This document shows positions 20,380 through 45,924 of a stretch of DNA of 45,976 nucleotides, piece after piece. The notes under the pieces were generated by a model, which was given only the letters and a program-made list of their open reading frames with translations, searched no databases and had not been told where the DNA came from. The position numbers and the translations under genes are program-made. The stretch is taken from positions 1 to 45,976 of the forward strand of contig JAIEEQ010000079.1 in assembly GCA_029067355.1 (NCBI GenBank). The letters run 5' to 3'. Each line of letters starts with the position of its first letter. Position 1 is the stretch's first letter. The DNA comes from Anaeroplasmataceae bacterium (lineage in GTDB: Bacteria; Bacillota_I; Bacilli_A; Acholeplasmatales; Anaeroplasmataceae).

Positions 20380-20402
20380 TTCCAATGCCGTTCAAGTCTT
20401 AC

Positions 20403-20490
20403 TCCGTTATTGAAAAATGAGGAATTAGAAACGAAAAAAGGCTGATGTTTCAAAGCTAAAATCTCTTGAAAAATCAACCTTTTCTCCATA
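20403..20490. repeat. Imperfect inverted repeat in the att arm
   Basis: AAAAGGCTGATGTTTCA and TGAAAAATCAACCTTTT can pair at about 15 of 17 positions. The same structure is in the remnant at 5096-5148. It may terminate integrase transcription or serve recombination. Confidence 0.5.
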
Positions 20491-20532
20491 TCTAAAATTT
20501 AGAATTCCACACCTCTAAATTTGATGATTTTC

Positions 20533-20544
20533 TTGGAGCCACAG
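20533..20544. repeat. Right attachment core
   Basis: TTGGAGCCACAG, overlapping the 3' end of tRNA-Gly; exact partner of 5195-5206. Confidence 0.9.
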
Positions 20545-20608
20545 AGCGGAATCGAACCGCCATCATATGCATGGCAAGCATAGGTACTAACCGTTGTACT
20601 ACTGCGGC
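20534..20608 (-). tRNA. tRNA-Gly (GCC)
   Basis: Minus strand, 75 nt with encoded CCA. Acceptor arms GCCGCAG and CTGTGGC pair (one G-U), the T-arm loop reads GTTCGATTCC, and the anticodon loop CTTGCCATG carries GCC. Its 3' end is the integration target and is kept intact by the element. Confidence 0.95.
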
Positions 20609-29491: not shown

Positions 29492-30210
29492 TATAGTCCC
29501 TCACCATATTCTTCATATTTCCTATCCATTGAAATTAATTCTTCAATACTATCTATCTCTACAATATCCTTACTCCCCATAGGGTAAATTGTCAAATCAA
29601 ATTTATCCTTATGTAAAAACATAGCCACATCATCCCAATAGATTTGATTATTTTTGTTTTTTTCAAATTCTAATTCTAATAATACCTTAAGCATTTTCCC
29701 ATCTTTAGCATTCCATCTAGATACACTATATAATTGCCAGCCCTGATTTCCTCCTGTTCTACTACAAGAAATTACACAACCATTCTCAACCTGCTGAAGC
29801 CATTCATTTGTGTCATGCTCAACCCATACACTATTATATCCAGATTTATCAAAATCCTTAAAAAGGATTGCAGGATTGTTTATAATCTGATCTCCATCTA
29901 AAACGATGGCATCCTCTAAATAATTTCTTGCAACATACAAAGACGAAATATTGTTACAGCTATCATAATATGGATTTTCAATAAATATGAGATTTGGATA
30001 TTTTGATTTTAAACCTTCAAATTTCTCTTTTAAATAACCAACCACAAGATATATTTCAGAAATTTCATTTTGAAGTAAAGCATCTATAATTGTATCAATC
30101 ATTCTTGTTCCATTCACTTCTACCAATGGCTTGGGTATGCGTAACGTTATTGGCTTCATTCTATTTCCAAGTCCAGCAGCTAAAATAATAGCTCTTTTAA
30201 TTTTTTCCAT
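29491..30210 (-). CDS. licC: CTP:phosphocholine cytidylyltransferase-like
   Basis: 239 aa from ATG 30208-30210 (GGAGATG upstream). Nucleotidyltransferase fold with AIILAAGLGNRMKPITLRIPKPL (split motif: LAAGLGNR and KPL bind the CTP phosphates), LDGDQII (metal-binding Asp) and DIVEIDSIEEL near the end, as in LicC. Makes CDP-choline. A second LicC-like domain is present in the upstream fusion gene, so the operon has two; one may use another alcohol phosphate. The gene overlaps the upstream one by 14 bases. Confidence 0.8.
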   Translation of the reverse strand: MEKIKRAIILAAGLGNRMKPITLRIPKPLVEVNGTRMIDTIIDALLQNEISEIYLVVGYLKEKFEGLKSKYPNLIFIENPYYDSCNNISSLYVARNYLEDAIVLDGDQIINNPAILFKDFDKSGYNSVWVEHDTNEWLQQVENGCVISCSRTGGNQGWQLYSVSRWNAKDGKMLKVLLELEFEKNKNNQIYWDDVAMFLHKDKFDLTIYPMGSKDIVEIDSIEELISMDRKYEEYGEGL

Positions 30211-31903
30211 TATTATCATCTCCAAAATACTTTAGCACCATTCTAGAATATACTTTTGCATACCGATACTGAGTTAAAGCATATTCTCCAAATTCTACCC
30301 CTAGCATACGTTTATATTCACACCAATTGCTCCAAAGAAGTCCACAAATAGCAACATAGGCATAAATTTTATATCGTATATTTTCTTCACATTCATTACA
30401 AAAATATATATCAATTATTTTGTCAATATACTCCTTGTCGTATCCTGCATAGATAGCAAACATTGCTAAGTCTACATGAACATCCTGCATTCCTGCATAT
30501 TCCCAATCAATCAACCGAATATTTCCATCAGGGTCAATTAAGAAATTATCTGGAACCGCATCTATATGAGTCAGATAATGTGGAGCATTGAATTGCTCAA
30601 TAATTTTTCTAAGCTTTAAAATATTACGCTTCACTTCTTTGTAATCCTTAAAAAGAGATTGATGATTAAAAAGCTCTTCATAGTATTCAATTTGAGAATA
30701 TAAATCGAAGGCGTGATCAACAATGATCTTTTTCTCATGAAACTTTCTTAAAAAGGGAATACACCTTTCCAAATCTTCCTTGTCAAACGGATTACAAACT
30801 TGTGTTTGATTGATAAATTTTGTAATCTTAACCCCGTTTTCTGGATTGAAAAATATAATCTCATCAGAAATTTTCAATGGATTTACTTTCGCATACACCT
30901 GATGTTCTTGATGGCGATTGATCAGCTTGTCCGTTCCCTCTCCAGGTATCCTCATAATATATTTATCTTGAGCTACTTCAAATAAAAAGGATCGATTTGT
31001 CATTCCTTTCTTTAAAGTAGAAACATTTTTAATATCCTTTACATCAATATGAAAGCATTCCTTAATTAAATCTATATGCTCATTTTTTAAGCTTTCTGAT
31101 TCTTGATCTATTTTGCGAAGCTGTTCATAGGTGTTTATCTCAAAGAAACAATCTTTATGAATAATCTTACTTGCTATTTTAAAGGATTTTTGATCCAAAA
31201 GAGAATCCTCCCAAAAGCTAAATTCATTTGAGGATACAGCACGCAAGTTAGAAACAAGAGCCTTTGCATCCAAATTATTAATATAAGCTAACCCAACTGC
31301 GTTTAAGAAGATATTTTTTCCTTTTATTAAAAAGCCTTTTTCATCAATATAGTAAAAGCCGCGTTTACTCTTTTCATCAGAAAGCATATACCATGAATCA
31401 TTTTCTAATGTGCTAAATGGATTTTCATAAAAATATAAATCTCCTGGAACAATATAAGAATTCCCAATCAAATGAGAAGCAAGAAATAAACTCTTACTGT
31501 TGGAATCTTTATAATATTCATTATTCACAAGAAGCTTCAAATTATACTTATCAATTAAATATTCAAATTTTTCTTTCATAAATCCAACAACAATGGTAAT
31601 ATCTTTTATACCCACTTCATGAAGCTGATGAATTAATCTTTCAATTAGCACTTCTTTTTTTATTGTTAAAAGAGCCTTCGGCGTTTGATTAATTGGTATC
31701 ATTCTCAATCCAAAACCAGCAGCCAATATGATTGCGTTTTTTACAAGGTAGTTTGAATTATCTATGTTGGAATGCTTCATATCTAAATTTTTAATAATTT
31801 GATTAACCTTTCCTAAGGAGAATCCTGTTAATTCAGATAGTTCTCTTTGTGTATATCTACCCGTTATCAAAAGCTTATAGATCTCAAATTCACTTTTGTT
31901 CAT
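30197..31903 (-). CDS. HTH + nucleotidyltransferase + choline kinase fusion
   Basis: 568 aa. Residues 1-45 form a winged helix (YTQRELSELTGFSLGKVNQI); 53-270 a LicC-like nucleotidyltransferase (ILAAGFGLR, PKALL, PGDLYFY); 275-560 a choline/ethanolamine kinase of the APH fold (LicA type) with HIDAVPDNFLID (catalytic Asp, Asn) and IDWEYAGMQD (metal-binding Asp). One protein can thus phosphorylate choline and activate it with CTP, and the HTH may tie it to gene control. In the nucleotidyltransferase PGDLYFY replaces the more usual DGD motif. First gene of the operon, with a consensus promoter. Confidence 0.85.
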   Translation of the reverse strand: MNKSEFEIYKLLITGRYTQRELSELTGFSLGKVNQIIKNLDMKHSNIDNSNYLVKNAIILAAGFGLRMIPINQTPKALLTIKKEVLIERLIHQLHEVGIKDITIVVGFMKEKFEYLIDKYNLKLLVNNEYYKDSNSKSLFLASHLIGNSYIVPGDLYFYENPFSTLENDSWYMLSDEKSKRGFYYIDEKGFLIKGKNIFLNAVGLAYINNLDAKALVSNLRAVSSNEFSFWEDSLLDQKSFKIASKIIHKDCFFEINTYEQLRKIDQESESLKNEHIDLIKECFHIDVKDIKNVSTLKKGMTNRSFLFEVAQDKYIMRIPGEGTDKLINRHQEHQVYAKVNPLKISDEIIFFNPENGVKITKFINQTQVCNPFDKEDLERCIPFLRKFHEKKIIVDHAFDLYSQIEYYEELFNHQSLFKDYKEVKRNILKLRKIIEQFNAPHYLTHIDAVPDNFLIDPDGNIRLIDWEYAGMQDVHVDLAMFAIYAGYDKEYIDKIIDIYFCNECEENIRYKIYAYVAICGLLWSNWCEYKRMLGVEFGEYALTQYRYAKVYSRMVLKYFGDDNNGKN

Positions 31904-31980: not shown

Positions 31981-32790
31981 TTACTTCTTATAAAGCTTAT
32001 AAAAGTGGTGTCCAACACGCTCGTTTTCTGGAGGAAGCTTCATATAATCTCCATAGGTCTTTGTCAAAATATGGTCATATTCCTTTGGTATAAAGTACAT
32101 ACCACCTTCAAAGCTATGCTTTATAAGCTCCTGAAATATTTTCTTTTCAAAAAATTTGCCATCTGCCGCATACCATGCAGGACAACCAACATAATTGGAG
32201 GTAGCGTAATCCTTTGTGGCAATAATGCGGTCTATTTTTTTAAAATAATGCTTCTTCCCCATAAGAGTTGCCCATTTCCAAATGAAAAATTTAGCCAGTC
32301 TTCTTATAAACTTAGGATCCTTAACTAATTTTTTTCTTCCAGCCATAAAGCATAAGGAGCCTAAATATTTAATTTTCTTTTCATATTTTAAACATTCCTT
32401 TAAAGTTACTCCCATTCCATCCAAAGGATATACATCAATAAATGCACCAATTCCATAATCCTCTACATAGTTTGATTGAATGATATAATCTGTATTTGAT
32501 ATACGTGCTATCATATAAGGATACTTTTCATTAACCTCTTTAGTAAAGAGCTTTAATTTCCCATTGTATTCCTGTTTCATATATTCCATTAGCTTATCAT
32601 AATCTGGACGTGGCATCATAATATCAAGATCATCATCCCAGGGAATGAAACCATTATGTCTAACTGCACCAATTAATGTTCCATAAATCAAAAAATATTG
32701 AAATCCCTTTTCTTCACAAATTGTAGCAATTTCATCAAGTATTTCTACTGATAGTCTTTGAACCTCTTTTATATCCTTGACTTCTTCCAT
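31981..32790 (-). CDS. licD: LicD-family phosphocholine transferase
   Basis: 269 aa from ATG 32788-32790 (AGGTGA upstream). LicD signature: FLIYGTLIGAVRHNGFIPWDDDLDIMM (shown in the parts GTLIGAVRHNG and PWDDDLDI), nucleotidyltransferase-like Asp pair for metal. Transfers phosphocholine from CDP-choline to a surface sugar, in pneumococcus GalNAc of teichoic acids. Just upstream of the operon that makes CDP-choline, so the set is complete here: uptake, kinase, cytidylyltransferase, transferase. Confidence 0.9.
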   Translation of the reverse strand: MEEVKDIKEVQRLSVEILDEIATICEEKGFQYFLIYGTLIGAVRHNGFIPWDDDLDIMMPRPDYDKLMEYMKQEYNGKLKLFTKEVNEKYPYMIARISNTDYIIQSNYVEDYGIGAFIDVYPLDGMGVTLKECLKYEKKIKYLGSLCFMAGRKKLVKDPKFIRRLAKFFIWKWATLMGKKHYFKKIDRIIATKDYATSNYVGCPAWYAADGKFFEKKIFQELIKHSFEGGMYFIPKEYDHILTKTYGDYMKLPPENERVGHHFYKLYKK

Positions 32791-32919
32791 ATATATCACC
32801 TAGTAAAATCAATTTTCATTGATAAATTTATTTAAAATAAAAATCAGCTTTGCTGTTTCAAACCACTCAAATGAGTCTAGTTTTTTTAGCGCTTCTTCCT
32901 TCATTTGAATTCGATTTTT

Positions 32920-33741
32920 TTATTCAGACGATTTTAGCTCATTTAAAATTTCTTTTATACTTTGAAAGGTAAATGTTGGTTTAATATTTCCATTTACAAT
33001 GTCATCCACCGCTGCCTCTCCAGATAGAACACATACCGCGGTAACATTAGAATTAATTCCAGTAGCAATGTCAGTGTAAAGTCGATCTCCAACAACCACA
33101 GTTTCTTCCTTATTACAAGAAAACTTATCCATTGCCAAATCCACCATTAAAGAGTTTGGTTTCCCAATGTACAATGGTTGTTGTCCTGTGGCATTGGTAA
33201 GCATTTGACATATTGATCCACAATCTGGAATAAAACCAAAATGAACGGGACAAGCCAAATCTGGATTGGTTGCAATAAAAGGTAATTTCCTAGTAAGCAG
33301 TTCAGAGGTTTTTCTAAGCTTTTCGCTTGTAAGCTCTGTATCAAAGCCAACAAGGACAGCATCAATATCCTCTTCTACATCAGTAGAAACATGGATTTTT
33401 CCCTCACATAATTCTTTAATAAGAGAATCTGTTCCTTGAACATAGATTTTCTTGTTTTTATACTTGTCCTGTAAATAAACAATGCTAGCTTGTGTGGAGG
33501 TGAAAAAATCCTCCTTTGTTGCCTCTATGCCCATAGTTCTTAGCTTGCAAACATAGTCTTCTACGGAACGAGAAGAATTATTCGTAATAAAAACATATTG
33601 AATTTCATTTTCTTTTAAATAGGATAAAAACTCTTTTGTTCCATCAAATAGCGTGTTTTCATTATAGATAGTTCCATCCATATCTAGCAGAAATAATTTT
33701 TTATGCTTCAAATCTGTTGCGGGTTTACCAAAAAAATCCAT
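32920..33741 (-). CDS. HAD-family phosphatase (NagD-like)
   Basis: 273 aa. HAD motif I LLDMDGTIYN, motif II FITNNSS, motif III lysine in YIGKPN, motif IV VVGDRLYTDI, with the C2a cap of the NagD/4-nitrophenylphosphatase group. Four bases after the nucleotidyltransferase gene and in one operon with a glycerol-1-phosphate dehydrogenase homologue. In the CDP-2-glycerol pathway of pneumococcal capsules (Gtp1-Gtp2-Gtp3) a HAD phosphatase of this kind makes dihydroxyacetone; the same role is possible here. A general phosphoglycerol phosphatase is the alternative. Confidence 0.75.
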   Translation of the reverse strand: MDFFGKPATDLKHKKLFLLDMDGTIYNENTLFDGTKEFLSYLKENEIQYVFITNNSSRSVEDYVCKLRTMGIEATKEDFFTSTQASIVYLQDKYKNKKIYVQGTDSLIKELCEGKIHVSTDVEEDIDAVLVGFDTELTSEKLRKTSELLTRKLPFIATNPDLACPVHFGFIPDCGSICQMLTNATGQQPLYIGKPNSLMVDLAMDKFSCNKEETVVVGDRLYTDIATGINSNVTAVCVLSGEAAVDDIVNGNIKPTFTFQSIKEILNELKSSE

Positions 33742-33745
33742 AAGA

Positions 33746-34453
33746 TTACTCCCTGAATAGATTTTCAGCAGCAGCTAAGTCGTCATGATTGTCAATTTCT
33801 AGCCAACGTCCCTTTAGTGGACAGGCTTTAAAATTCACTTCGCCTAAAACATCATGTAAGGCAACCTCACTCCAAAGCTTAAGTTCTGTTTTATCTTCAA
33901 TATATTCCCTACACTTTTTGAAGAAGACTTCTCCCGCTGAAGGAGAAAACTTGTATACATCTATGGAAACTCCTAAGGCTTCCTCTGGAGAAATTTGCTT
34001 AGAAATATGAGATAAAACACCATTACTCTCTGTTACCTTCATAGATTCTTCAATGTACTTCCCAATCTCAACAACAATCGCATTCTCATAAGGACATGCA
34101 AGAAGTTCCTGAATGACAGAGGCATCATAGAAAACATCAGCATTCATCATAAGAAATGCTTCTCCCTTTAGGATATCCTTTGCCAGATAAGCAGAATACA
34201 TATTGTTTGTGTTCGCATAATCTACACTGCGAATAAACTGAATGCCAGAAAAATTAGAAGAAACTGCCTCTTCCAAAACCTCTGCCTTATACCCAGAAAT
34301 AATCGTTATATCTGTTATCCCATTTTCATGTAAATTTTCAATTTGCTTAAATAGAATTGGTTTTCCATTTACAGGCACCATAGACTTTGGACAATGGTCT
34401 GTTATAGGTGCCAATCTAGATCCTAATCCAGCTGCTAAAATTAATGCTTTCAT
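33746..34453 (-). CDS. Nucleotidyltransferase for glycerol or sugar phosphate
   Basis: 235 aa, ATG after GAGGAGG. Motifs ILAAGLGSRLAP, CPKSMVPVNGKP, MNADVFYD (metal site) and WLEIDNHDDL near the end mark the sugar-phosphate/alcohol-phosphate nucleotidyltransferase fold. Its place between the glycerol-1-phosphate dehydrogenase homologue and the HAD gene, one base after the former, suggests it makes a CDP-glycerol-type donor (CDP-1- or CDP-2-glycerol). NTP choice is not visible. Confidence 0.75.
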   Translation of the reverse strand: MKALILAAGLGSRLAPITDHCPKSMVPVNGKPILFKQIENLHENGITDITIISGYKAEVLEEAVSSNFSGIQFIRSVDYANTNNMYSAYLAKDILKGEAFLMMNADVFYDASVIQELLACPYENAIVVEIGKYIEESMKVTESNGVLSHISKQISPEEALGVSIDVYKFSPSAGEVFFKKCREYIEDKTELKLWSEVALHDVLGEVNFKACPLKGRWLEIDNHDDLAAAENLFRE

Positions 34454-34454
34454 T

Positions 34455-35471
34455 TTAATATGCCTCCTCGATTTGCTTATATATTGCTTCTATCTTTTCT
34501 CTTGTTAGTTCTATTTCATTTAAAATGGTATATCGATTTGGACGAGTAAATCGCGCCTTCAGCCAAGCATCAATAAAGATTTCCTTTGAAATTCCTAATG
34601 CGGATGGCCGTACATCTATTTCGTTATACTTCAAAAATCGTACAAGCTTGTTGAAATTTTGATTTTGCAGAATTGAGCTTACCAAAGCTCCAAGTCCAAC
34701 CAAGTATCCGTGCAATACCTGAATCTGCGGATAATGTGCCACAATAGCGTGATTAAACAGATGCTCTGAGCCACTACATGGTCTAGTATTTCCCTTAAGC
34801 TCCATCGCAACTCCAGATAAAACAATAGATTCACAAGTGATCTTAATTTTCAAATCCTCATCAATAGTTTCAGGTAAATTGAACAAGCTCCAAAATGAAT
34901 TAGAGGAAATCATTTTTGCCACATCATCAGTCTTTTCTTTTCCTCTTTTAATTGCCAAATCCCAATCATATAAAGCAGTATAATTGGAAAGAATGTCACA
35001 TATTCCTGCCTTTAAATATTTTTTTGGAGAGTTCTTAATTAAATCAATATCAATAACTACCACATCAGGTGATTTGGATGGTAGACCATCTGTACGTTCA
35101 CCATCAAATTTTAAAACAGAGGTGTTTGAGCATACTCCATCATTAGAAATAATCGTTGGTATTGATATAAGCTTCTTCTCGCTATACTTAGCTGCCAGCT
35201 TACAGGTGTCATTTACTGTTCCTCCGCCTATGGAAACAAGACATTCATAATAGTTTACGATTAAATGCTTAGAAAGAGTCAGCGCTTCTTCAACTCTATA
35301 ATCCTGAACAAAATACAAATCACAGTTCTCAAATACTACTTTTTGTTCAATTTCTTTTTTAAATAAAGTGTAGATGTCTTCACTACTGACTACCAAAACC
35401 TTTTCAAAATTTTTTAGTAGTTCTTTTAAAGTATCCCAAGCATTATGTTCAATTATAATCTGCTTATTCAT
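34455..35471 (-). CDS. sn-Glycerol-1-phosphate dehydrogenase family (AraM/EgsA-like)
   Basis: 338 aa. NAD-binding GGGTVNDTCK; metal ligands and active site near DGVCSNTSVL, CDILSNYTALYDW, RPCSGSEHLFNH and QVLHGYLVGLG, typical of the iron-containing alcohol dehydrogenase branch with G1P dehydrogenases. Reduces dihydroxyacetone phosphate (or dihydroxyacetone in Gtp2-like enzymes). First gene of the three-gene set; ATG after AGGAAG with a TATAAT -10 upstream. In bacteria AraM makes archaeal-type G1P, so a lipid role is possible, but the neighbours favour a CDP-glycerol donor. Confidence 0.8.
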   Translation of the reverse strand: MNKQIIIEHNAWDTLKELLKNFEKVLVVSSEDIYTLFKKEIEQKVVFENCDLYFVQDYRVEEALTLSKHLIVNYYECLVSIGGGTVNDTCKLAAKYSEKKLISIPTIISNDGVCSNTSVLKFDGERTDGLPSKSPDVVVIDIDLIKNSPKKYLKAGICDILSNYTALYDWDLAIKRGKEKTDDVAKMISSNSFWSLFNLPETIDEDLKIKITCESIVLSGVAMELKGNTRPCSGSEHLFNHAIVAHYPQIQVLHGYLVGLGALVSSILQNQNFNKLVRFLKYNEIDVRPSALGISKEIFIDAWLKARFTRPNRYTILNEIELTREKIEAIYKQIEEAY

Positions 35472-35496
35472 GAATCTTCACTTCCTAACAATCCTT

Positions 35497-35530
35497 ATTA
35501 TACACTACTTTTATTTAGAATTCGATAATA
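35497..35530 (-). promoter_or_regulatory. Probable promoter of the CDP-glycerol-type operon
   Basis: TATAAT (35497-35502) on the minus strand with a weak -35 (TCGAAT) 17 bases upstream, 25 bases before the start codon. Confidence 0.5.
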
Positions 35531-35540
35531 AATTTAAATC

Positions 35541-37322
35541 CTATTCTACGGTAACGCTTTTTGCCAGGTTCTTCGGCTTATCTACATCATTGCCCTTTAA
35601 TGTTGCTGAATAATAGGCAAGAAGTTGCGTTACAGCAACACTAACTAATGGAGATAGATAATGAGCAACATCTGGAACAATAAAATCATCTTCACCTTCA
35701 GATAAAGTTTCCATAGAGATAACCACTGGCAAAGCTCCACGAGAAACGGTTTCCGCCAAATTAGAACGCACAATTGCGTTTGTGTTTTCCTGAGTGCAGA
35801 TTGCAATTACAGGAGTTCCTTCAGTGATTAACGCAATAGACCCATGCTTTAGCTCTCCTGAAGAAAAGGCCTCTGTATGAATATACGCAATTTCCTTAAG
35901 CTTTAGTGCAGATTCCAAGCAAGCCCAATAATCAATCCCTCTTCCAATATAGAAAATATCATTAGCATCTTTTAATTTTTCTGCGATTTGCTTGATAACT
36001 CCCTTTTGATCTAAGATTTTTTCTATTGCTAAAGCAATTCTATTCAAATTGGTTTTTAAATTCGTTATCTTATGCGTTAAGGCTTTTGCCAAGATAGCAC
36101 AAACAACCACCTGTGCCATATAAGACTTTGTTGATGCAACCGCAATTTCTGTACCCGCACAAATATCCAAAGTATAGTCCGCAATTGAATTCATTGTAGA
36201 GGTCTTGGAGTTTGTAATGGCTATTGCTGGAAACCCTTGAGCTTTAAACTTTTTCATTACAGCAATACTATCTGCTGTTTCTCCAGATTGACTCAAATAA
36301 ATGAAAACCGGTTTGTCTTTAATTAAAGGCGTTGAATAAACTAATTCAGAGGCTACAAAAACCTCACTAGGAATCCCGCATAGTTTTTCAAAATAATATT
36401 TTGCCATATAGGATGCATACATTGAAGTTCCACAAGCAACAAAGTTAATTTTATCACACGAAAGAATGACATCAATAATTTCTTTATCTATATTGATTTC
36501 TTCTTCCACAAAATAGTTAGATACAAGATTCCTAATCACACCAGGCTGTTCATGAATTTCCTTTAGCATATAATGCTCAAAGCTTCCCTTTGAAATTTCA
36601 TCTATACTGATATTCATTGGAACTGCCTGATATTCTGCTGGCACTCCCATAATATCATACAAAGAAAATCCATCCTTTCTTATTTCCGCAAAGGTTAAAT
36701 CCTGCATAATAATGTAGGAATCACAATGACCTGCAAGAGGTATAACATCACTTGCTAAAATAAATTCATGCTCAGAAATTCCAATATGCATTGGAGCCTT
36801 ATTCTTACATACATAAAGCCTATCTGGAGTATGATCATCAATTAATAAGAAGGCATAGGATCCTTCTAGCTTACTCATTGTTTTTCTTATCGCATCTCTT
36901 ATAGAAAGGCTGCGAGAATAAAGTTCAATCAGATTAACGATTACCTCAGTATCTGTTTCACTTACAAAGGTTATCTCCTTTAGATAATCTGCCTTTATTT
37001 TTTTAAAATTATCTATAACTCCATTGTGAACAATGGTAAATCGCTTGTTTTGAGATTGATGAGGGTGAGAATTGATTTGATTCGGCTTGCCATGTGTTGC
37101 CCACCTCGTATGTCCAATCCCTAGAGTAGACTGAATTGTTGGATCAATAATCATTTCCAAATGAGAAACTCTTCCCTTATCTTTAAAAATATGAACTTTC
37201 TTCTGATTATTCAAAAGAGCTATACCAGCAGAATCATATCCCCTATATTCTAACTGCTTAAGACCATGAACAATAACCTCTTTTGCTTGTTTTTTTCCAA
37301 TATATCCAATGATTCCACACAT
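35541..37322 (-). CDS. glmS: Glutamine-fructose-6-phosphate aminotransferase
   Basis: 593 aa from ATG 37320-37322 (GGGAG upstream; the longer frame only adds MGVSL). Begins MCGIIGYIG with the nucleophile Cys at residue 2, so the start is firm. Glutaminase domain (GHTRWATHGKPN, HNGVIDN), then two SIS sugar isomerase domains (VACGTSMYASYMAKYYFE, SQSGETADS), ending in KNLAKSVTVE as in all GlmS proteins. Makes glucosamine-6-phosphate. There is no room for a glmS ribozyme: the gene follows glmU by about 15 bases in one operon. Confidence 0.95.
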   Translation of the reverse strand: MCGIIGYIGKKQAKEVIVHGLKQLEYRGYDSAGIALLNNQKKVHIFKDKGRVSHLEMIIDPTIQSTLGIGHTRWATHGKPNQINSHPHQSQNKRFTIVHNGVIDNFKKIKADYLKEITFVSETDTEVIVNLIELYSRSLSIRDAIRKTMSKLEGSYAFLLIDDHTPDRLYVCKNKAPMHIGISEHEFILASDVIPLAGHCDSYIIMQDLTFAEIRKDGFSLYDIMGVPAEYQAVPMNISIDEISKGSFEHYMLKEIHEQPGVIRNLVSNYFVEEEINIDKEIIDVILSCDKINFVACGTSMYASYMAKYYFEKLCGIPSEVFVASELVYSTPLIKDKPVFIYLSQSGETADSIAVMKKFKAQGFPAIAITNSKTSTMNSIADYTLDICAGTEIAVASTKSYMAQVVVCAILAKALTHKITNLKTNLNRIALAIEKILDQKGVIKQIAEKLKDANDIFYIGRGIDYWACLESALKLKEIAYIHTEAFSSGELKHGSIALITEGTPVIAICTQENTNAIVRSNLAETVSRGALPVVISMETLSEGEDDFIVPDVAHYLSPLVSVAVTQLLAYYSATLKGNDVDKPKNLAKSVTVE

Positions 37323-37337
37323 AAGGCTCACTCCCAA

Positions 37338-38591
37338 CTATTTTTTAAAACCATATTTTGAGGCATATCCTGGCTTGGTAACTTGCTTAGCTCTTGCGAT
37401 TGCAAAAGCTCCCTCTTCTACATCAGAAGTAATCGTAGATCCCGCTGCAATGAAGCTTTCATCTTCTATGTTGATTGGGGCTATCAAGTTAGAATTACAG
37501 CCAATAAAAACATCATTTCCTATTGTTGTTCTATATTTGTTCTTTCCATCATAGTTCACTGTTACACATCCACAACCCCAATTTACATGATCTCCACAGG
37601 TCGTATCTCCAATATAGGTCAAGTGGGCAACATTTGTTTTGGTTCCCAGTACTGAATTCTTTATTTCAACGAAATTCCCAATTCTATCTTTTTCACCAAT
37701 GATGCTATTCATACGAATATGAGCAAAAGGCCCCACTGTTGCATTACTACAAATTTTTGAATCTGAAACCACGGATTGAATACATGTAGCATTATCCTCT
37801 ATAATTGAATTTTCCAAGGTGGTATTGGGTCCAATCGTACTATTTTTTCCGATTTTCGTTTCTCCCCATAAATTACAGCCTGAATAAATAACTGTTCCAG
37901 CCCCTATTTCCACTTGTGAAGCTATTGTTGTAGAATTTGGATTTATGATTCTAACGCCATTTAATATGTGCTTTTTAAGAATGGTTTTTCTTACTTCCTC
38001 TTCTACACAGGATAAATCATATAAATCATTAACACTACTCAAATTAATAGAATCCTTAAATGTAAAGAATCCTATCTTTATTTTTTCCTCTAATGCTAGT
38101 AAAATATCTGTCATACCATATTCTTTTTTCTCTTCAGAAGAACATTGTTCTAGAACAGATAAAAAAATATTATTTCTAATACAATAAAAGTCCGTAGTTT
38201 CTTCCTTAATCTTTCCAATTGTAACATCATTATTTTCATTCAAATGAGTTGAAATCATCTGATTTAAAATTTCCTCATCTACTAAAGGTACATCTCCTGG
38301 CAAAATCAATGTATGTCCATCTTCTTTCAAAAATGAAGATGCACATTTTAAGGCATGTATCATACTAAAGGGTTCATTTTGAACAACATATTCAACTTGA
38401 TTCTTTAAAATATCCTGTAAAATTTCCTTTTCTTGTCCAACAACACAGATTACTTGATTTACCATACTTTTTTTTAAAGCATCAACAACATATTCTATCA
38501 TGGGCTTCTTTAATAAAGAAACTGCACACTTTGGCAATTCTGTGTTTAAACGAGATCCTTTTTCTGCTGCTAACACAATAGCATAATTCAT
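37338..38591 (-). CDS. glmU: Bifunctional GlmU, uridylyltransferase/acetyltransferase
   Basis: 417 aa from ATG 38589-38591 (AAGGAG upstream). N-terminal pyrophosphorylase begins MNYAIVLAAEKGSRLNTELPK: the nucleotide-binding loop normally reads LAAGxGTR, so Glu (codon GAA) takes a Gly position. LPGDVPL is the metal site. C-terminal left-handed beta-helix with hexapeptide repeats, VGPFAHIR and the acetyltransferase histidine region HLTYIGDT and NYDG. Shorter than the usual 450-460 aa. It joins glmM and glmS in one operon for UDP-GlcNAc. The N-terminal activity might be altered. Confidence 0.9.
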   Translation of the reverse strand: MNYAIVLAAEKGSRLNTELPKCAVSLLKKPMIEYVVDALKKSMVNQVICVVGQEKEILQDILKNQVEYVVQNEPFSMIHALKCASSFLKEDGHTLILPGDVPLVDEEILNQMISTHLNENNDVTIGKIKEETTDFYCIRNNIFLSVLEQCSSEEKKEYGMTDILLALEEKIKIGFFTFKDSINLSSVNDLYDLSCVEEEVRKTILKKHILNGVRIINPNSTTIASQVEIGAGTVIYSGCNLWGETKIGKNSTIGPNTTLENSIIEDNATCIQSVVSDSKICSNATVGPFAHIRMNSIIGEKDRIGNFVEIKNSVLGTKTNVAHLTYIGDTTCGDHVNWGCGCVTVNYDGKNKYRTTIGNDVFIGCNSNLIAPINIEDESFIAAGSTITSDVEEGAFAIARAKQVTKPGYASKYGFKK

Positions 38592-38592
38592 T

Positions 38593-39885
38593 TTAGACAC
38601 TCTCCTTGACCAGCTTAACAAGCTCTTCAATATACTTTTCAACAATTTGTTCATCTAAAGCCATTACTGTAATACGAATAAGCTCCTCTGTGCCAGAAGG
38701 ACGAACAATAATCTTGCAATCCCCATGTAAGGAATTCTTCATCTCCTCAATTCTCTTGAATAAGGTCGGATGCTGAAGCACTTTATTTTTATCCTTAACC
38801 TTAATATTAATCATTACATCCTTATATAAGACAAGGTCTTCAAACCAATCTTCTATTCTGGTGTTTGTTTTTGAAAGAATTTGACAAAGATATAAAGCAT
38901 TTAAAACACCATCTCCTGTATGAAGTAAATCTGGAAGAATAATATGTCCACTATTTTCTCCACCCAAAGAAAGATTTCTCTTTTGGAGCTCAGAAATGAT
39001 ATATTTATCTCCAACCTCCGTTTCAATGACCTTTATACCTCGCCTATTTAAGTCTTTTATCAATCCCAAATTACTCATTTTTGAAAGAACAATTGTATCT
39101 TCTTTTAGCAAATGCTCAGATTTTAAATAGCGGGCAAAAAGATAAATCATTTTATCTCCGTCTATTGTATTTCCTTTGCAATCAACACATAATACACGAT
39201 CTCCATCTCCGTCAAAAGCAAAACCAATATCACAGCCTTCTTGAACAACTGCCTGTTTTAATGAATCCAAATGAGTTGATCCACATTCTCGGTTAATGTT
39301 ATAACCATCTGGACTATGATGAAGAACAACCAATCTCTTGGAAACCTTTGAAAAAACTGCTGGAGCCGTTTTATAGGTTGCACCATTTGCACAATCAATT
39401 GCAATTTTCAAATTCGTTTTAGCAACATATTGATTCAAAAGACTAAAATATTGTGATAAAGACTCAAAGGAAAAACGAAAGCTTCCAATTTCTTTATTAA
39501 AGGACTCTACATGATCAATGTAATTTTCAATCCTTTTTTCCTCTGCTTCTGTTAGTTTGAATCCCAAATTAGAAATTTTGATTCCATTATCTTGATACGG
39601 ATTATGGGAAGCTGTAATCATAACTCCAGTTACTTTATTAACATAAGAATAATAAAGTAGTGCAGGAGTAGGTACAATCCCTATATGCTTAACCTTAAGT
39701 CCCCTTGACAAGCATCCAGAGGCCAACGCTAAGGATAGCATATCCTTTGAAATTCTTGTGTCCGTAGCAATAACAACTGTTTTACTAGGCAAAAGAGATA
39801 ATGCCATACCAACACGAGTTACTAAATCTAATGTTAACTTTTCATTTGGAATTCCACGAATTCCATCAGTACCAAAATATTTCAT
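38593..39885 (-). CDS. glmM: Phosphoglucosamine mutase
   Basis: 430 aa from ATG 39883-39885 (AGAGGG upstream). Starts MKYFGTDGIRG, the family N-terminus; active serine in TASHNPYQDNG; metal site FAFDGDGDRV; sugar loop GGENSGH; phosphate loop RPSGTEELIR. Converts GlcN-6-P to GlcN-1-P between GlmS and GlmU. First of the glm genes in transcription order, just after a lipoprotein gene. Confidence 0.95.
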   Translation of the reverse strand: MKYFGTDGIRGIPNEKLTLDLVTRVGMALSLLPSKTVVIATDTRISKDMLSLALASGCLSRGLKVKHIGIVPTPALLYYSYVNKVTGVMITASHNPYQDNGIKISNLGFKLTEAEEKRIENYIDHVESFNKEIGSFRFSFESLSQYFSLLNQYVAKTNLKIAIDCANGATYKTAPAVFSKVSKRLVVLHHSPDGYNINRECGSTHLDSLKQAVVQEGCDIGFAFDGDGDRVLCVDCKGNTIDGDKMIYLFARYLKSEHLLKEDTIVLSKMSNLGLIKDLNRRGIKVIETEVGDKYIISELQKRNLSLGGENSGHIILPDLLHTGDGVLNALYLCQILSKTNTRIEDWFEDLVLYKDVMINIKVKDKNKVLQHPTLFKRIEEMKNSLHGDCKIIVRPSGTEELIRITVMALDEQIVEKYIEELVKLVKESV

Positions 39886-39907
39886 CTTTAAATCCCTCTC
39901 TCCCACT

Positions 39908-40837
39908 TTAAACTTTCATTGTTACAATTTGAGCAATACTGCCTGGTCGTGCCAATCCAAATAACAAATAAAACTCATCATCTTTTCTATAAGAAAATAA
40001 ACCTTCAGCCTCAAAGATACCAGGAATAATAATTTTGTCAACTTCTTCCCTCTCTTTTAAATCAATAATCTGAATTTCGACTCCTTTATATTTACTAGCT
40101 CGTTCTGTCTGAATATTACAAGCAATGAAAAGCTGATTTCCTATCAGTGTTGCTCCCTGCACAAAAACTGCATCCCATTGCTTTTCAAATATTTTTTCTG
40201 CCTGCATTGACTCTAAATTATAAAGATAAACACAAAGCTTATCTGTCGATTCATGTTTTACATTAAAAGTTTCTTTTGGGGGTATATCTGGAAGATAATC
40301 CTGTGTAACTAAGATGAGTTCATTCTCAGAATAGGAACAAACACCCATTAAGCAACGAATTGAAATTCCTTGTGCTGGTTCTATTCCTTTAATCTCCAAT
40401 CTTTCAATTTTGTCCTCTTCCATAGTCCATTTATACAATTTCTGGGTTTCTCCTAAATAACTGGTAATTTTAGATCCCACAATATACATTGTATCTCCAA
40501 TAAAACAAAAATCATTATCATGACCTGTTTCCTTTGGCTTTGTCATTTCTGCTATGTATTTCTGTGTATTAAAATTATAAACCAAAACTCGATTAGAACC
40601 ATCTAGCTTAAATAAATATTCTTGGCTCTTATCCAACCCAACAGATTGTATCCTCCATTCATTTTGTTCTTTTCCAATATCCTTAAATAGTCTAATTTCA
40701 TATTCCATTTCTGCCCTTTGACTATGTCCTTTATAAATCAGCAGAGGTTCCTTGTCATTATTTCCTGAACAGGAAACAAAAAAGATGGAGCACAAAAATA
40801 AAATCACCATTATTGCTGCTTTTGATATATTTCTCAT
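39908..40837 (-). CDS. Lipoprotein, possible beta-propeller
   Basis: 309 aa. Signal peptide and lipobox FVSC; the rest is rich in beta strands with repeated blocks (KLYKWTMEEDKIERLEI, KLCVYLYNLESMQAEKIFE, GVEIQIIDLKEREEVDKIII), suggesting a beta-propeller. No family recognised. It lies between the glycerophosphotransferase and glmM, so a role in envelope polymer export or sensing is possible but unproven. Confidence 0.6.
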   Translation of the reverse strand: MRNISKAAIMVILFLCSIFFVSCSGNNDKEPLLIYKGHSQRAEMEYEIRLFKDIGKEQNEWRIQSVGLDKSQEYLFKLDGSNRVLVYNFNTQKYIAEMTKPKETGHDNDFCFIGDTMYIVGSKITSYLGETQKLYKWTMEEDKIERLEIKGIEPAQGISIRCLMGVCSYSENELILVTQDYLPDIPPKETFNVKHESTDKLCVYLYNLESMQAEKIFEKQWDAVFVQGATLIGNQLFIACNIQTERASKYKGVEIQIIDLKEREEVDKIIIPGIFEAEGLFSYRKDDEFYLLFGLARPGSIAQIVTMKV

Positions 40838-40851
40838 AGTTCCTGCAATTC

Positions 40852-42015
40852 CTATCTTTTATTTTTTATCATCATATCTATATACTGCACAACCTCTTTA
40901 GAAGCTGATCCAAGAGGATAATAGTTTAATAGATTCATAAAAGACTGAACATTTTGATTATAATATGATTCATCAAAGGTTAAAATATTATGGATAAGCT
41001 CTTCTTCTGTTTTGGCAATTGGAAAAGGTAACTCTGTGATTGAAAAGTACATTTCTCTTTCCGTTTGAAGATATTGCTGTAAGTCCTTTGTAAAAAGAAA
41101 AACCTTCTTTTGGATTGCCGAAAACTCAAACATTGTAGAGGAATAATCTGTGATTAAAATATCAGATGCCAAGAGTAGCTCCTGCATATCTGGATAAGAG
41201 CTTGCATTAATTACTCTTTCACTTTCTTTAATATGCTGATATAGCATAGTATCATTTGGATGCAAACGAATTAATAAAACAAATTCATCTTTAAAGCTGT
41301 TCTCAAAGGCTGAAATAGCTTCTTCATAATCAAATGTAAAAACATCCATATTTCTAGTTTGTCTAAAGGTAGGAGCATATAATATAATTTTTTTAGATTG
41401 GGATAAACCAAAAAAGTCCTTAACCTTCAATTGAAAGTCCTGAGGATTTCTAGCTAGCATATCCTCTCTGGGAACTCCCTTTTCTAAAACCTCTCCACTA
41501 TACCAGAAATCATTTAAATAAAGCTGTGTACACCATTTGGAATTTGAAAGCATCAAATCTGTAATTTTGCCATCTTTTTTTGCTTTCTTAATGTAATTTC
41601 TATCTAATAATTCTTCAGCTGATTTTTCTATTTTTTTAAGTGGAATACTACCATGCCAAGTTTGGATATAAAATTGCTTTTTCTTTTTCCTGACTCTTAA
41701 TCCGTTGCGGATATTATCAATCCAAACTTTTGCCGTAGCTAATTCATAATATGCTCGAATAGACCCATATTTCACCTTATGAATCCCATTTGGAAGCACA
41801 GACTCCATATCCTTTACTAACCAAACAAGATGATAAGGCTTATTTTGCTTAAGCATCTCCTCAGCAATATATTTAGGATTGTCCCCATAGCCCTTTCCTC
41901 CAAAATTTTGAAAAACTATTTTTTTCTTATGAATTGGGAAGAAAGAGAAACAAAAGCCAATCATACCATAAAATATTTTGTAAATCAGATGATAGATGAA
42001 CTTCAATATCTTCAT
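40852..42015 (-). CDS. CDP-glycerol glycerophosphotransferase-like (TagB/TagF family)
   Basis: 387 aa. N-terminal amphipathic/hydrophobic segment for membrane association; IQTWHGSIPLKKI holds the conserved WHG of the family; LYAPTFR, LIRLHPND and DILITDYSSTMFEF are the remaining donor-site motifs of the Glyphos_transf fold. Adds glycerol phosphate (or ribitol phosphate) from a CDP donor to a lipid-linked sugar or polymer. Pairs well with the CDP-glycerol-type genes at 32920-35471. Single-domain length, so it may be a primase-like or single-addition enzyme. Confidence 0.85.
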   Translation of the reverse strand: MKILKFIYHLIYKIFYGMIGFCFSFFPIHKKKIVFQNFGGKGYGDNPKYIAEEMLKQNKPYHLVWLVKDMESVLPNGIHKVKYGSIRAYYELATAKVWIDNIRNGLRVRKKKKQFYIQTWHGSIPLKKIEKSAEELLDRNYIKKAKKDGKITDLMLSNSKWCTQLYLNDFWYSGEVLEKGVPREDMLARNPQDFQLKVKDFFGLSQSKKIILYAPTFRQTRNMDVFTFDYEEAISAFENSFKDEFVLLIRLHPNDTMLYQHIKESERVINASSYPDMQELLLASDILITDYSSTMFEFSAIQKKVFLFTKDLQQYLQTEREMYFSITELPFPIAKTEEELIHNILTFDESYYNQNVQSFMNLLNYYPLGSASKEVVQYIDMMIKNKR

Positions 42016-42026: not shown

Positions 42027-42260
42027 CTAGGCCAACTTATCTTGAATTAGCATTTGATAAAATGATTTTACATACATTTCACAATTTTGTTTGTAAAAAT
42101 CCATAATTCCCTCTTGAGCAAGAGAATCCTTTTTCATCTTCTGCTTACATTTATAGACTGTGTTTTGGTTAAATAAATTAAAACGATATTCAATTGAAGC
42201 CAATTTAAGAAAGGAAGGCTTATTAAGAATTCTTCTTATCTTTTTTTTAATTAACTTCAT
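42027..42260 (-). CDS. Small basic protein (77 aa)
   Basis: ATG after AGGAGG, overlapping the flippase end by 14 bases and ending 11 bases before the glycerophosphotransferase. Basic, helical, no membrane segment, no family recognised. A conserved operon position would be needed to judge whether it is real; the strong ribosome binding site supports it. Confidence 0.5.
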   Translation of the reverse strand: MKLIKKKIRRILNKPSFLKLASIEYRFNLFNQNTVYKCKQKMKKDSLAQEGIMDFYKQNCEMYVKSFYQMLIQDKLA

Positions 42261-43812
42261 TACGTTTTTTCCTCCTAAGCTTTGAACATACCATATTCAA
42301 ATAATACTTATAGTTTGGATCAATCAAGGAAATAGAACCTATACAAACTGTTGCAATTCCCCCAGTGGAAATTAATTTTAAAACAAAGCCCCCCCAGCCC
42401 TCAATCTTAATAAATGAATTTACATAATATACAAGGCTGGCAACCAATACAATTGTAATTAATTCTAAAATATATTTTAGGTAAAACTTTAACGGAGAAA
42501 CCTTAAGAACCCTTTTATGAACAATATAAGGCTCAAACCAAAGAATTGTAAGAATAAAGCTTACCGTTGTAGCAATAAATATACCAATCAAGCCAAGCTT
42601 CCACCCCAATAATATGGAGAGAATGATATTGATGATTCCCTGAATTAAAGGGCGAAATTTACCATACTTATATAAGCCATAGGCATCTCTAAATATTACA
42701 GCAGAAAACACAAGACCTGGTAACAAATAATTTAAAGTAATCACAATTACTATTGGAAATTCCAGCAAATAAGAATCCTCTTTTAACCAAATGGTAATAA
42801 ATGGATTCAATAAATCTACTAAGCAAATAGCTGTAATACCAAATAAAACAAATACTAAATAGTTTATTTTATTATAAATATCCTGCTTCTTCTCATAATC
42901 CTCTTCATTGATATTGGCAACACTTGGAGTTAATGCAAAGAATATACTTTGGACCATTGTAGTAACATATAAGATCATCATAGAATAATTAGAATAAACT
43001 CCAACAACATCCAAGCCTAGCATTTTTGAAATAATCATATTGTCTGTTGCTGCATATAGCTTACCACCAATCTGGTATAAAGCCAATGCGGCAATATCTG
43101 TAAAGATTACCTTTTTTTCTTCTTTTGTTAAAAACGAATCGTTTTTCTTGAATATCTCTGGATGCCTCTTCATTGCAATTATACTTGCAACGAACTCTAC
43201 AAAAATAGAGAAGAAAATAGAAATAGTTAAATAAATATAAAAGTTCTTTGTGGCATAAAGAATCACAATTAATACCACACTTTTCACGATTTCTATAATC
43301 AGATTGACTATTTTAATAAAATACCCCTCTTGATGGGCATTTAAAATGCAGTTTTTATAAGAAAATAAGAAATACGGCAAAACAGTGTTAAGTAAATACA
43401 GCACATAGATAACAGGTAAATTTAAAAAATCATAATCTTTATAATTGGCTATCAGTAAGGGTAATGCTGGTATTACACACAGCCCAGCGCCTAAAAGAAT
43501 GGAGCCAATAACAATATAGCATTTTTTATAAAGCTTATACAAAGCCTGTACTTTTGAAGCGTCATTTTCTCTTATGGCTTTATACATACTAAATACAATA
43601 GCTGTACCTATTCCCAATTCAGCCACAGATAAAAATTGAAGAATCTCTGAAAATAAACTTGATGCTCCCAAATACGTTTTTCCAAGCGTTTGTATAAATA
43701 CAGTTTTTAAAACAAAGCCTAAAATGATTTTAAGAATACTGCTTAATAAACTAAACCCAGAATTCAACTTGGCATAATGTGTTCTGTTTTTTTTCTTTGC
43801 TGCGGTTTCCAT
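42247..43812 (-). CDS. Polysaccharide flippase (Wzx/PST family)
   Basis: 521 aa with about 14 membrane helices. It begins with a basic tail and GFSLLSSILKIILGFVLKTVFI, continues with GASSLFSEILQFLSVAELGIGTA, typical of the PST/MVF family, and ends in basic KLRRKKRNEVN. Moves lipid-linked repeat units across the membrane. ATG after AGGAGGGG, 36 bases after the glycosyltransferase. Confidence 0.85.
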   Translation of the reverse strand: METAAKKKNRTHYAKLNSGFSLLSSILKIILGFVLKTVFIQTLGKTYLGASSLFSEILQFLSVAELGIGTAIVFSMYKAIRENDASKVQALYKLYKKCYIVIGSILLGAGLCVIPALPLLIANYKDYDFLNLPVIYVLYLLNTVLPYFLFSYKNCILNAHQEGYFIKIVNLIIEIVKSVVLIVILYATKNFYIYLTISIFFSIFVEFVASIIAMKRHPEIFKKNDSFLTKEEKKVIFTDIAALALYQIGGKLYAATDNMIISKMLGLDVVGVYSNYSMMILYVTTMVQSIFFALTPSVANINEEDYEKKQDIYNKINYLVFVLFGITAICLVDLLNPFITIWLKEDSYLLEFPIVIVITLNYLLPGLVFSAVIFRDAYGLYKYGKFRPLIQGIINIILSILLGWKLGLIGIFIATTVSFILTILWFEPYIVHKRVLKVSPLKFYLKYILELITIVLVASLVYYVNSFIKIEGWGGFVLKLISTGGIATVCIGSISLIDPNYKYYLNMVCSKLRRKKRNEVN

Positions 43813-43849
43813 TCTTCCCCTCCTGTTCTTTTTAATATAGATTTTTATA

Positions 43850-44761
43850 TCAGTAAAATATTGTGAAAAATTTTAAATAAAGCTTTTTCAAAAAGGAACA
43901 ATCTAATTGAAATGCATATTTTCTTGCAATCCTTTTAAACTGCTTAGTTTCTTCTTTCCTATCTTTTTTTGGTTCAATATACTTTAGCCAATGAATACAT
44001 TGGACCAAATAGCAATAAATAGCTTTCTTCATTAATTGATCCTCATGATACCCCTTATAAAAATCAATGGAAAATCTTATCGCCTGCACACAATCTACAC
44101 GTCTTTTTACAGATGTGGTCATAATGCTATTTTCCCGAATTCTATAAATATAAAGCTGCTCTAAAATAATTGCACATTTTTTTGAATAGTAAATTGCCTT
44201 ATAGGTAGTATATTCATCCTCATGAATTTTCCCCTCTGGAAAACGAAGAGATTCAAACAACCTTTTAGAATAAAGCTTATTCCATGTTACAAAGGATAAA
44301 TTTGAAATTGTATCATCATATATATTGTTCAATAATTCTGATGCCGCACAAACAGAATACTTATCCTGTTCAACATTAATTTTCGTTTCCGTAGATTTCA
44401 CATATCTACAACAGCTCAATTCTACATCAGAATCCTCTAAAAAAGGCTGTACAAGCCTTTCTAAAAATGTAGGCTCTAGATAGTCATCAGAATCAACAAA
44501 GGATAAAAGATCATACGTGGCAACATCTATCCCTGCATTCCGAGCAGAGGAAAGTCCTCCATTCTCCTTATGAATGACCTGTACCCTTGAATCCAATTTT
44601 GCATATTCATCGCACAAAGCTCCTGATTCATCAAGAGATCCATCATCTACCAAAATAATCTCAAAGCGCTGATAAGTCTGGGATAAAATAGAATCCACAC
44701 ATTGCTTCAAATAATCTTTAACATTGTAAACTGGTACAATTACTGATATAAAGTTCTTCAT
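43850..44761 (-). CDS. Family 2 glycosyltransferase
   Basis: 303 aa. GT-A fold: ISVIVPVYNVKDYLKQCVDS, EIILVDDGSLDESG, NGGLSSARNAGID and SFVDSDDYLEP (DxD motif), then a helical C-terminus. Adds a sugar from a nucleotide donor, probably UDP-linked, to the lipid-linked unit. Co-transcribed with the polymerase-like gene (11-base gap). The specificity cannot be read. Confidence 0.9.
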   Translation of the reverse strand: MKNFISVIVPVYNVKDYLKQCVDSILSQTYQRFEIILVDDGSLDESGALCDEYAKLDSRVQVIHKENGGLSSARNAGIDVATYDLLSFVDSDDYLEPTFLERLVQPFLEDSDVELSCCRYVKSTETKINVEQDKYSVCAASELLNNIYDDTISNLSFVTWNKLYSKRLFESLRFPEGKIHEDEYTTYKAIYYSKKCAIILEQLYIYRIRENSIMTTSVKRRVDCVQAIRFSIDFYKGYHEDQLMKKAIYCYLVQCIHWLKYIEPKKDRKEETKQFKRIARKYAFQLDCSFLKKLYLKFFTIFY

Positions 44762-44772
44762 ATGCTTCTCCT

Positions 44773-45924
44773 TTACGCTGCTGCCTTCTTATAATCCTTT
44801 TTGCTATTAAAGGTTAATAGTCCTATAAGAAGATAAAAATAGATTAAGCCAATATAGAAATCAAACAAAGAACATAACAGGAAAGTACTTAAGCCAATAA
44901 TAAACATACGATATACAGATTTCTTTTCGTTCCTATTACAAACCTTAACAGAGGTTATAAAGAACTTAATAAATATAACAGAGCCAACAAGTCCTGTCAT
45001 CATCAGAAATTCTAATAAAATATTATGTGCATGAGTTGTTCCATACAAATAGTAATTATTAATTTGCTGGTCAGTTAAGCTTCCATAACCAAAAACAGGC
45101 TTTTCTAAAAAGCGGTCAAAGGCCAATGGCCAAATCTTTTCTCTTGAAGATAAGCCTTTTTTTCCAATAAGCCCTGTGATTGAATCAACTAATGATGCAT
45201 TATAGAAAAAGGTTACAAATAGAACAGCTATAACAATGAGAGTTGTACAAGTTTTCAAATTGAAAACTCTGTTCACAAAAGGATCATACAAGAATGCAGT
45301 TGCGATTAACAATACGGCATAGGCCACTAATCCCGTCACAGCAAAGGTATAAGCTAATCCAAAAAAACCAACCAATGAAATTACATAGCTTATCAATTGA
45401 ATTTTTTTTCTATATTTTAAATCATAAAGGAATAAAAGGCAGCATAACACAATCAAAATAAAGGCCGAACGATTATCTCCTCCTAAAAAGTATTTATCAT
45501 AAGAAATAATCGCAGTTGCAAAAAGAGGATGGTCAATGATAATTGTAAAAGTATGTAGACAAATATAAACCGCGGAAATATTATACAAAGTTTTAAAAAT
45601 ATACTTTTCAAATTTAGACGAACGATAATAGTCAAAAAACATAAAAAGACCAAAGACAGATAATATTTCCATCAAATAGCTCATAATATTATGGTTTAAA
45701 GCTAACCCAACACACCACGACAGTAAGAATAACCAGCATATTTTGGTTATTCGACTCACTCTTTTTCTTTGAATGATAAACATCAAAACTAAAACCAAAG
45801 TTACTAAAATTTTACCAATTTGAAAAACCTTATCTAACATTGGTATCAAAGAAACATTAAAGGGCTTTAAATATATTATAAAAAATAATACAATAAAAAT
45901 CTTATTTCCCAAATTACTTTTCAT
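44773..45924 (-). CDS. O-antigen polymerase/ligase-like membrane protein
   Basis: 383 aa with about 10-12 membrane helices and a large outside loop containing GLSSREKIWPLAFDRFLEKPVFGYG and HAHNILLEFLMMTGL, the R...GYG...H-NxxLE signature of the Wzy_C family. Polymerises or ligates repeat units. ATG after AAAGGAG. Only about 50 bases remain upstream in the window. Confidence 0.85.
   Translation of the reverse strand: MKSNLGNKIFIVLFFIIYLKPFNVSLIPMLDKVFQIGKILVTLVLVLMFIIQRKRVSRITKICWLFLLSWCVGLALNHNIMSYLMEILSVFGLFMFFDYYRSSKFEKYIFKTLYNISAVYICLHTFTIIIDHPLFATAIISYDKYFLGGDNRSAFILIVLCCLLFLYDLKYRKKIQLISYVISLVGFFGLAYTFAVTGLVAYAVLLIATAFLYDPFVNRVFNLKTCTTLIVIAVLFVTFFYNASLVDSITGLIGKKGLSSREKIWPLAFDRFLEKPVFGYGSLTDQQINNYYLYGTTHAHNILLEFLMMTGLVGSVIFIKFFITSVKVCNRNEKKSVYRMFIIGLSTFLLCSLFDFYIGLIYFYLLIGLLTFNSKKDYKKAAA

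Follow-up and report, generated by a model that had tools for sequence, protein, structure and literature searches.

The stretch of DNA analysed here, hereafter the window (45,976 nucleotides, contig JAIEEQ010000079.1 of the Anaeroplasmataceae bacterium assembly GCA_029067355.1), carries on its minus strand three intact adjoining genes, for a dehydrogenase of the sn-glycerol-1-phosphate (G1P) dehydrogenase (G1PDH) type, a nucleotidyltransferase and a HAD protein, here called Gtp1, Gtp2 and Gtp3. One base separates the first two genes and 4 bases the last two, and Pfam agrees with the families that the sequence-only reading had given them when it described a tight operon; its coordinates were also right. 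The Tag-type transferase that it had placed nearby proved to be a PF04464 gene on the same strand (Table 1), covering model positions 8–365 of 367 with 269 bits (Pfam cut-off 22.1) and scoring 183.2 bits against the TarF model (cut-off 550). We consider it probable that the triad is a Gtp1-3-like module which makes a CDP-glycerol other than CDP-sn-3-glycerol, whichever of the two products discussed below this is, and which feeds the PF04464 transferase of the locus.

Table 1. The triad and the genes around it in the window.
Feature	Positions	Strand	Basis or remark
Gtp1-like G1P-dehydrogenase-type enzyme, 338 aa	34455–35471	minus	Pfam Fe-ADH_2, 2.8e-24
Gtp2-like nucleotidyltransferase, 235 aa	33746–34453	minus	Pfam NTP_transferase, 2.8e-15; LicC fold in nucleotide half
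Gtp3-like HAD-IIA protein, 273 aa	32920–33741	minus	Pfam Hydrolase_6, 4.3e-27
TagF/TarF-like glycerophosphotransferase, 387 aa	40852–42015	minus	PF04464 Glyphos_transf, 7.8e-80; upstream of triad
GlmS-like glucosamine-6-phosphate synthase (UDP-GlcNAc supply)	35541–37337	minus	TIGR01135, 664.9 bits (cut-off 418.05)
GlmU-like bifunctional enzyme	37338–38654	minus	TIGR01173, 381 bits (cut-off 366.85)
GlmM-like phosphoglucosamine mutase	38593–39906	minus	TIGR01455, 430.9 bits (slightly below cut-off 447.55)
309-aa protein, lipoprotein-like start by eye	39908–40837	minus	no Pfam match; between glmM-like gene and transferase
LicD-family phosphotransferase	31981–32799	minus	PF04991, 1.1e-43; adjoins triad
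568-aa protein with winged-helix, nucleotidyltransferase and choline-kinase/APH domains	30197–31903	minus	Pfam domains
LicC-like CTP:phosphocholine cytidylyltransferase	29491–30225	minus	internal contrast to Gtp2
Wzx-like flippase, family-2 glycosyltransferase, Wzy-like O-antigen ligase/polymerase	42247–45924	minus	surface-polysaccharide setting

Gtp1 keeps the motifs GGG...D..K, SNDG, RPCSGSEHLF and LHG as well as D159, and it matches solved G1PDHs in sequence. Against the G1P dehydrogenase equivalog NF002022 it scored 228.7 bits, below the cut-off of 413, which the AraM-like L084 also missed (213.5 bits). When its AlphaFold model (pLDDT 91.7) was compared by fold with solved chains, the C. 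acetobutylicum protein 3ce9 came first (Z 39.9) and the solved G1PDHs second (Z 36.6–38.0), among them the M. jannaschii entries (37.0–38.0, one with NADPH and dihydroxyacetone phosphate, DHAP), 5fb3 (36.7) and B. subtilis AraM 9h4x (36.6), with glycerol dehydrogenases other than 3ce9 at 32.4 or below. Aligned with Gtp1, 3ce9 has PxSGAEH and is missing the preceding R. The entire motif, RPxSG[SA]EH, is present in 25 of 37 aligned rows, which include Gtp1 of the window and of the other triads as well as the dehydrogenases paired with a nucleotidyltransferase, except for the Streptomyces and Nonomuraea copies; it is missing in L033 and L059, both scanning as glycerol dehydrogenase, and A, K or S replaces its R in several unpaired copies. 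We infer that the motif reads the phosphate of the substrate, and the likely reaction of Gtp1, judged by sequence and model, is the conversion of DHAP to G1P.

In a tree of the 37 rows, Gtp1 of the window groups with that of L009, one of the other triads, and with an unpaired copy from genome G457 (100/100), apart from the rows taken as AraM-like. The unpaired relative in G457 (54% identity; L053, 8717–9736) lies by eye between gyrB- and gyrA-like genes, with no nucleotidyltransferase or HAD match within the 12.9 kb read. An archaeal-type ether lipid pathway of AraM and PcrB, in favour of which one may cite the G1PDH fold common to Gtp1 and AraM, is scarcely credible, given the polysaccharide setting of the triad, the place of Gtp1 outside the AraM-like clade, and the search for PcrB, which was found in none of eight genomes, the window's included, while controls, B. 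subtilis among them, were positive. We rejected the lipid reading on the failure to find PcrB in these eight genomes and on the tree position, and the context confined to AraM and PcrB that the sequence-only reading had set up as its counter-case is thus not what the locus offers.

Gtp2 matches the LicC (1jyk) profile in the nucleotide-binding half (E 6e-25), and its alignment stops short of the acceptor half. The LicC-like protein of the same locus (searched with 29491–30210), by contrast, aligns with LicC over nearly its whole length. The TNEW box, which from the LicC structure we take to hold choline, is present in LicC and in the locus's own LicC; none was found in the Gtp2-type proteins, all five of which have ESMKV in its place (GKYIEESMKV in the window). 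As the likeness to LicC ends before the acceptor half and the box was not found, we rejected a choline reading of Gtp2. Elsewhere on the acceptor side, these five proteins read GxSID[VI]YK where the six other paired nucleotidyltransferases aligned have GEYIG. E-x-MKV was rejected as a mark of nucleotidyltransferases paired with a G1PDH because the same or a near form occurs in control enzymes that lack such a neighbour (DEEVKV in L140, ADDMKV in L141 and EEEVKY in L143; the phosphonate-type L142 is without it); on these alignments it is a motif of the wider family, which separates these nucleotidyltransferases from the locus's LicC and is no evidence for glycerol. Phosphonate and aminotransferase genes accompany wider relatives of Gtp2, as would suit a CDP-alcohol other than CDP-glycerol, for example one of an amino-alcohol or of a longer polyol; such a product is very unlikely for the triad, in view of the G1PDH signature of Gtp1, the PF04464 neighbour and the finding by eye of no aminotransferase directly beside the triads. 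Among the plasmid relatives of Gtp2, the Streptomyces and Nonomuraea places do have a G1PDH. On a Solidesulfovibrio plasmid (L143, 3778–5675) a cytidylyltransferase-family gene comes immediately after a PF04464 gene (175.5 bits), and the 10.7 kb read gave no G1PDH match.

Gtp3 has the HAD motifs DMDGT, TNNSS, GKP and GDRLYTD and should therefore be able to form phospho-aspartate. It scored 151.6 bits against the HAD-IIA model TIGR01460, above the cut-off of 100.15, and among solved proteins it comes closest to a 4-nitrophenylphosphatase and to members of the NagD-like group, and is more distant from glycerol-3-phosphate phosphatases. It is predicted to be a phosphatase, a phosphotransferase or a mutase, between which its sequence does not discriminate.

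Dehydrogenase, nucleotidyltransferase and HAD genes recur in identical order in three further loci, each with a PF04464 gene at most 4 kb away: L009 in one Bacilli metagenome-assembled genome (G632; identities of 62, 59 and 58% to Gtp1, Gtp2 and Gtp3 of the window) and L107 and L108 in genome G665 (64–66% for Gtp2, 55% for Gtp3 and ~36% for Gtp1). The recurring order is therefore more than chance. Our survey of neighbours covered 111 locus rows with a G1PDH-like match, many of them repeat reads and many with a flank of only ~1.5 kb, and in these a HAD protein of at least 55% identity lies beside the dehydrogenase only in the window (L001), L009, L107 (with its short read L073) and L108, and one of 41–42% in L067 and L084. 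In four of the five loci with the Gtp2 type, two of the four being in one genome, the gap or overlap between the end of Gtp2 and the start of Gtp3 is no more than 4 bases. Gtp1 was found in none of 10 other genomes of the window's genus, within which the module seems sporadic. The best plasmid matches, drawn from 181 (Gtp1), 432 (Gtp2) and 141 (Gtp3) records, all stayed below 60% identity, and in viral contigs the 28 stretches matching a pattern for query A1 included no relatives. At two loci in two genomes (L057, 8256–10006; L113, 8467–10271) the gene for an MtnX-like HAD-IB phosphatase stands directly before a G1PDH-like gene and overlaps it, a pair that may make glycerol from DHAP.

Pairs of nucleotidyltransferase and G1PDH genes with no HAD match occur at L106 (G959; order PF04464-Gtp1-Gtp2), L109–L111, L112, L063, L114 and, in a DPANN archaeon, L007; those at L112 and L063 adjoin CDP-alcohol transferases and that at L114 a PF04464 gene. 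The pairs at L109–L111, in three genomes, adjoin WecG/TagA-family and PF04464 genes (32.5–41.7 bits, cut-off 22.1), and this cluster may represent a route to wall teichoic acid that starts from G1P; L109 and L111 have almost the same dehydrogenase. Together with the G1PDH signature that Gtp1 keeps, and with the polymer that the TagF-like Cps7D builds from CDP-sn-1-glycerol alone (PMC8262930), the pairs free of HAD make it tenable, if only tentatively, that the product is CDP-sn-1-glycerol, with Gtp1 making G1P, Gtp2 activating it directly and the HAD protein serving as a clean-up or regulatory phosphatase, an account that overlaps the one we prefer. The HAD protein is, however, 55–58% conserved and in most loci of the Gtp2 type nearly abuts Gtp2, which suggests a role in the pathway, and the difference between GxSID[VI]YK and GEYIG means that the acceptor of the Gtp2-type enzymes may differ.

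We searched the genome of the window (1.79 Mb, 89 contigs, 96.96% complete) for other supplies of CDP-glycerol. TagD (TIGR01518) was not found in it; the sole open reading frame matched, with 24.8 bits against a cut-off of 165.4, was rejected as CoaD (177.2 bits, cut-off 103.3). A gpsA gene lies beside the CoaD frame, and the PF04464 gene of the window is the only one found in this genome. Since neither TagD nor PcrB nor another PF04464 gene was found, the triad is probably the source of CDP-glycerol for the transferase. TagD likewise gave no match in the genomes of L009 and L106, and two weak matches in that of L107 and L108 (44.8 and 40.2 bits) were rejected as heptose RfaE/HldE-type enzymes. 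Two genomes of the window's genus, G130 and G135, have a PF04464 gene (only 28.9 bits in G135) and no Gtp1, and their PF04464 loci contain a TagD-like/GFO_IDH fusion (114.9 and 121.4 bits, cut-off 165.4); one genus therefore seems to use different activation modules for PF04464 enzymes. Both fusions (L120, 14357–15715 in G130; L121, 5373–6674 in G135) adjoin an aminotransferase-like gene by eye, and their loci are possibly another unusual CDP-alcohol module. The presence of GpsA where TagD was not found, and the normal use of CDP-3-glycerol by PF04464 enzymes (PMC5974469), would agree with Gtp2 as a stand-in for TagD that makes ordinary CDP-sn-3-glycerol from sn-glycerol-3-phosphate while Gtp1 and the HAD protein do something else. 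This is unlikely, since a G1PDH-type gene one base from Gtp2 would be purposeless if GpsA fed Gtp2, and such a gene is present in all five loci, though the loci were found by it.

In the pathway that we propose, Gtp1 would reduce DHAP to G1P, the HAD protein would act on the phosphoester, Gtp2 would join the product to CTP, and the PF04464 transferase would attach glycerol phosphate to, or incorporate it in, a surface polysaccharide bearing LicD-type, probably phosphocholine, groups as well. Wang et al. in 2010 are said to have described a CDP-2-glycerol pathway with Gtp1 as dihydroxyacetone reductase, Gtp3 as glycerol-2-phosphotransferase and Gtp2 as cytidylyltransferase. Because of this reported pneumococcal product, and because the HAD protein is tightly kept with the Gtp2 type, our analysis leans slightly towards CDP-2-glycerol; CDP-sn-1-glycerol, favoured by the G1PDH features of Gtp1 and by the pairs that lack a HAD gene, would be almost as likely. 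In the literature, the order in pneumococcal 23F is wchX, gtp1, gtp2, gtp3, annotated as putative glycerol-2-phosphate dehydrogenase (gtp1), nucleotidyl transferase (gtp2) and phosphotransferase (gtp3) (PMC3493582), and gtp1-3 are named as glycerol-2-phosphate synthesis genes, one strain having wchX without them (PMC6332807). The match to Gtp1-3 drawn by the sequence-only reading is accordingly upheld in gene content and order, and in the nearby PF04464 gene; between CDP-2- and CDP-1-glycerol, both of which it had entertained, sequence cannot tell.

A bolder version, which we regard as doubtful, makes the HAD protein a phosphomutase from G1P to glycerol-2-phosphate: its aspartate would take the phosphate of the G1P made by Gtp1 and return it to the 2-hydroxyl, with no kinase. 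More widely, pairs of a G1PDH and a LicC-fold cytidylyltransferase would on this version be an overlooked bacterial route by which an archaeal-handed or symmetric glycerol phosphate enters surface polymers and lipids. A HAD mutase would reconcile the evidence for the 2-form with that for the sn-1 form.

As for the transferase, PMC5974469 and PMC8262930 report two TagF-like polymerases that take both enantiomers of racemic CDP-glycerol in vitro, and in the latter CDP-1-glycerol is called likely absent in bacteria and is traced to an activity in archaea for which no enzyme had then been identified. The terms 'glycerol-1-phosphate cytidylyltransferase', 'CDP-1-glycerol', 'CDP-sn-1-glycerol' and 'CDP-L-glycerol' were not found in the literature searched, which included few subscription papers; 'CDP-1-Gro' does occur there, in 3 papers, and 'CDP-2-glycerol' in 2. 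The genus of G928 is presumed to be Streptococcus (G928 is the one genome of 299 that matches the Strep_his_triad family), and here, with no positive control and hence with no bearing on pneumococcal gtp genes, Gtp2 had no match at E ≤ 1e-30 in 284 genomes, and Gtp1 had matches in 39 of 40 at 1e-6 (best 2.6e-19), which by their scores we read as glycerol-dehydrogenase level.

Several points weigh against a Gtp1-3-like module feeding the transferase. Its membership of the Gtp1-3 group is putative, being drawn from gene content and order; the top fold match of Gtp1 bears a glycerol dehydrogenase label; and in all four plasmid places read besides those of Streptomyces and Nonomuraea, relatives of Gtp2 adjoin other partners without a G1PDH, so that the nucleotidyltransferase family alone is no proof of glycerol. 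The search for loci was seeded with Gtp1, and hence only the nucleotidyltransferase, HAD and PF04464 neighbours are independent evidence. Two of the three further triads share one genome, and their Gtp1, at the low identity given above, is on another branch of the tree, Gtp2 and Gtp3 therefore being kept together more closely than Gtp1; at L106 there is no HAD gene in the 20 kb read. The window's genome is a draft of the completeness stated. A glycerol-phosphate polymerase described in PMC11666461 accepts the sn-3 form only, and Gtp2 could in principle use sn-glycerol-3-phosphate, GpsA being present.

Between the dehydrogenase gene and the PF04464 gene lie those for the GlmS-, GlmU- and GlmM-like enzymes and the 309-aa protein. 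Downstream of the triad, a BCCT transporter gene accompanies those for the LicD-family protein, the helix-turn-helix/nucleotidyltransferase/choline-kinase fusion and the LicC-like protein, and the whole is a surface-polysaccharide locus carrying phosphocholine-type genes. The fusion appears to join a regulator to LicC- and LicA-type functions. Farther to the left, at 19333–20608, a phage-type integrase gene adjoins a tRNA-Gly gene, which suggests an integrated element in that part of the window.

In bacteria, TagD is generally assumed to supply CDP-glycerol, in the sn-3 form. A genome in which the single glycerophosphotransferase detected seems to receive its substrate from a G1PDH-type module is a clean case for the real substrate of a TagF-like enzyme in the cell, and loci with and without the HAD gene offer a test set for how glycerol-2-phosphate arises in the pneumococcal CDP-2-glycerol pathway.

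Compared with known systems, the window locus has the PF04464 transferase in common with TagD/TarD-fed wall teichoic acid and with TagF-like capsule polymerases, but its genome yielded no TagD-type cytidylyltransferase. Gtp1 shares fold, NAD motif, SNDG, RPxSG[SA]EH and LHG with the EgsA/AraM G1PDHs and, unlike them, adjoins a cytidylyltransferase-type gene, forms a clade separate from the AraM-like rows and occurs in a genome with no detected PcrB. The nucleotide-binding half of Gtp2 is like that of LicC (1jyk), unlike its acceptor half, which is not alignable and in which the TNEW box was not found. The window's host is no pneumococcus and its transferase is of the PF04464 family; it is by gene content and order that the triad is likened to pneumococcal gtp1-gtp2-gtp3, whose gene kinds and order it matches and whose capsule locus also has a putative glycerol phosphotransferase.

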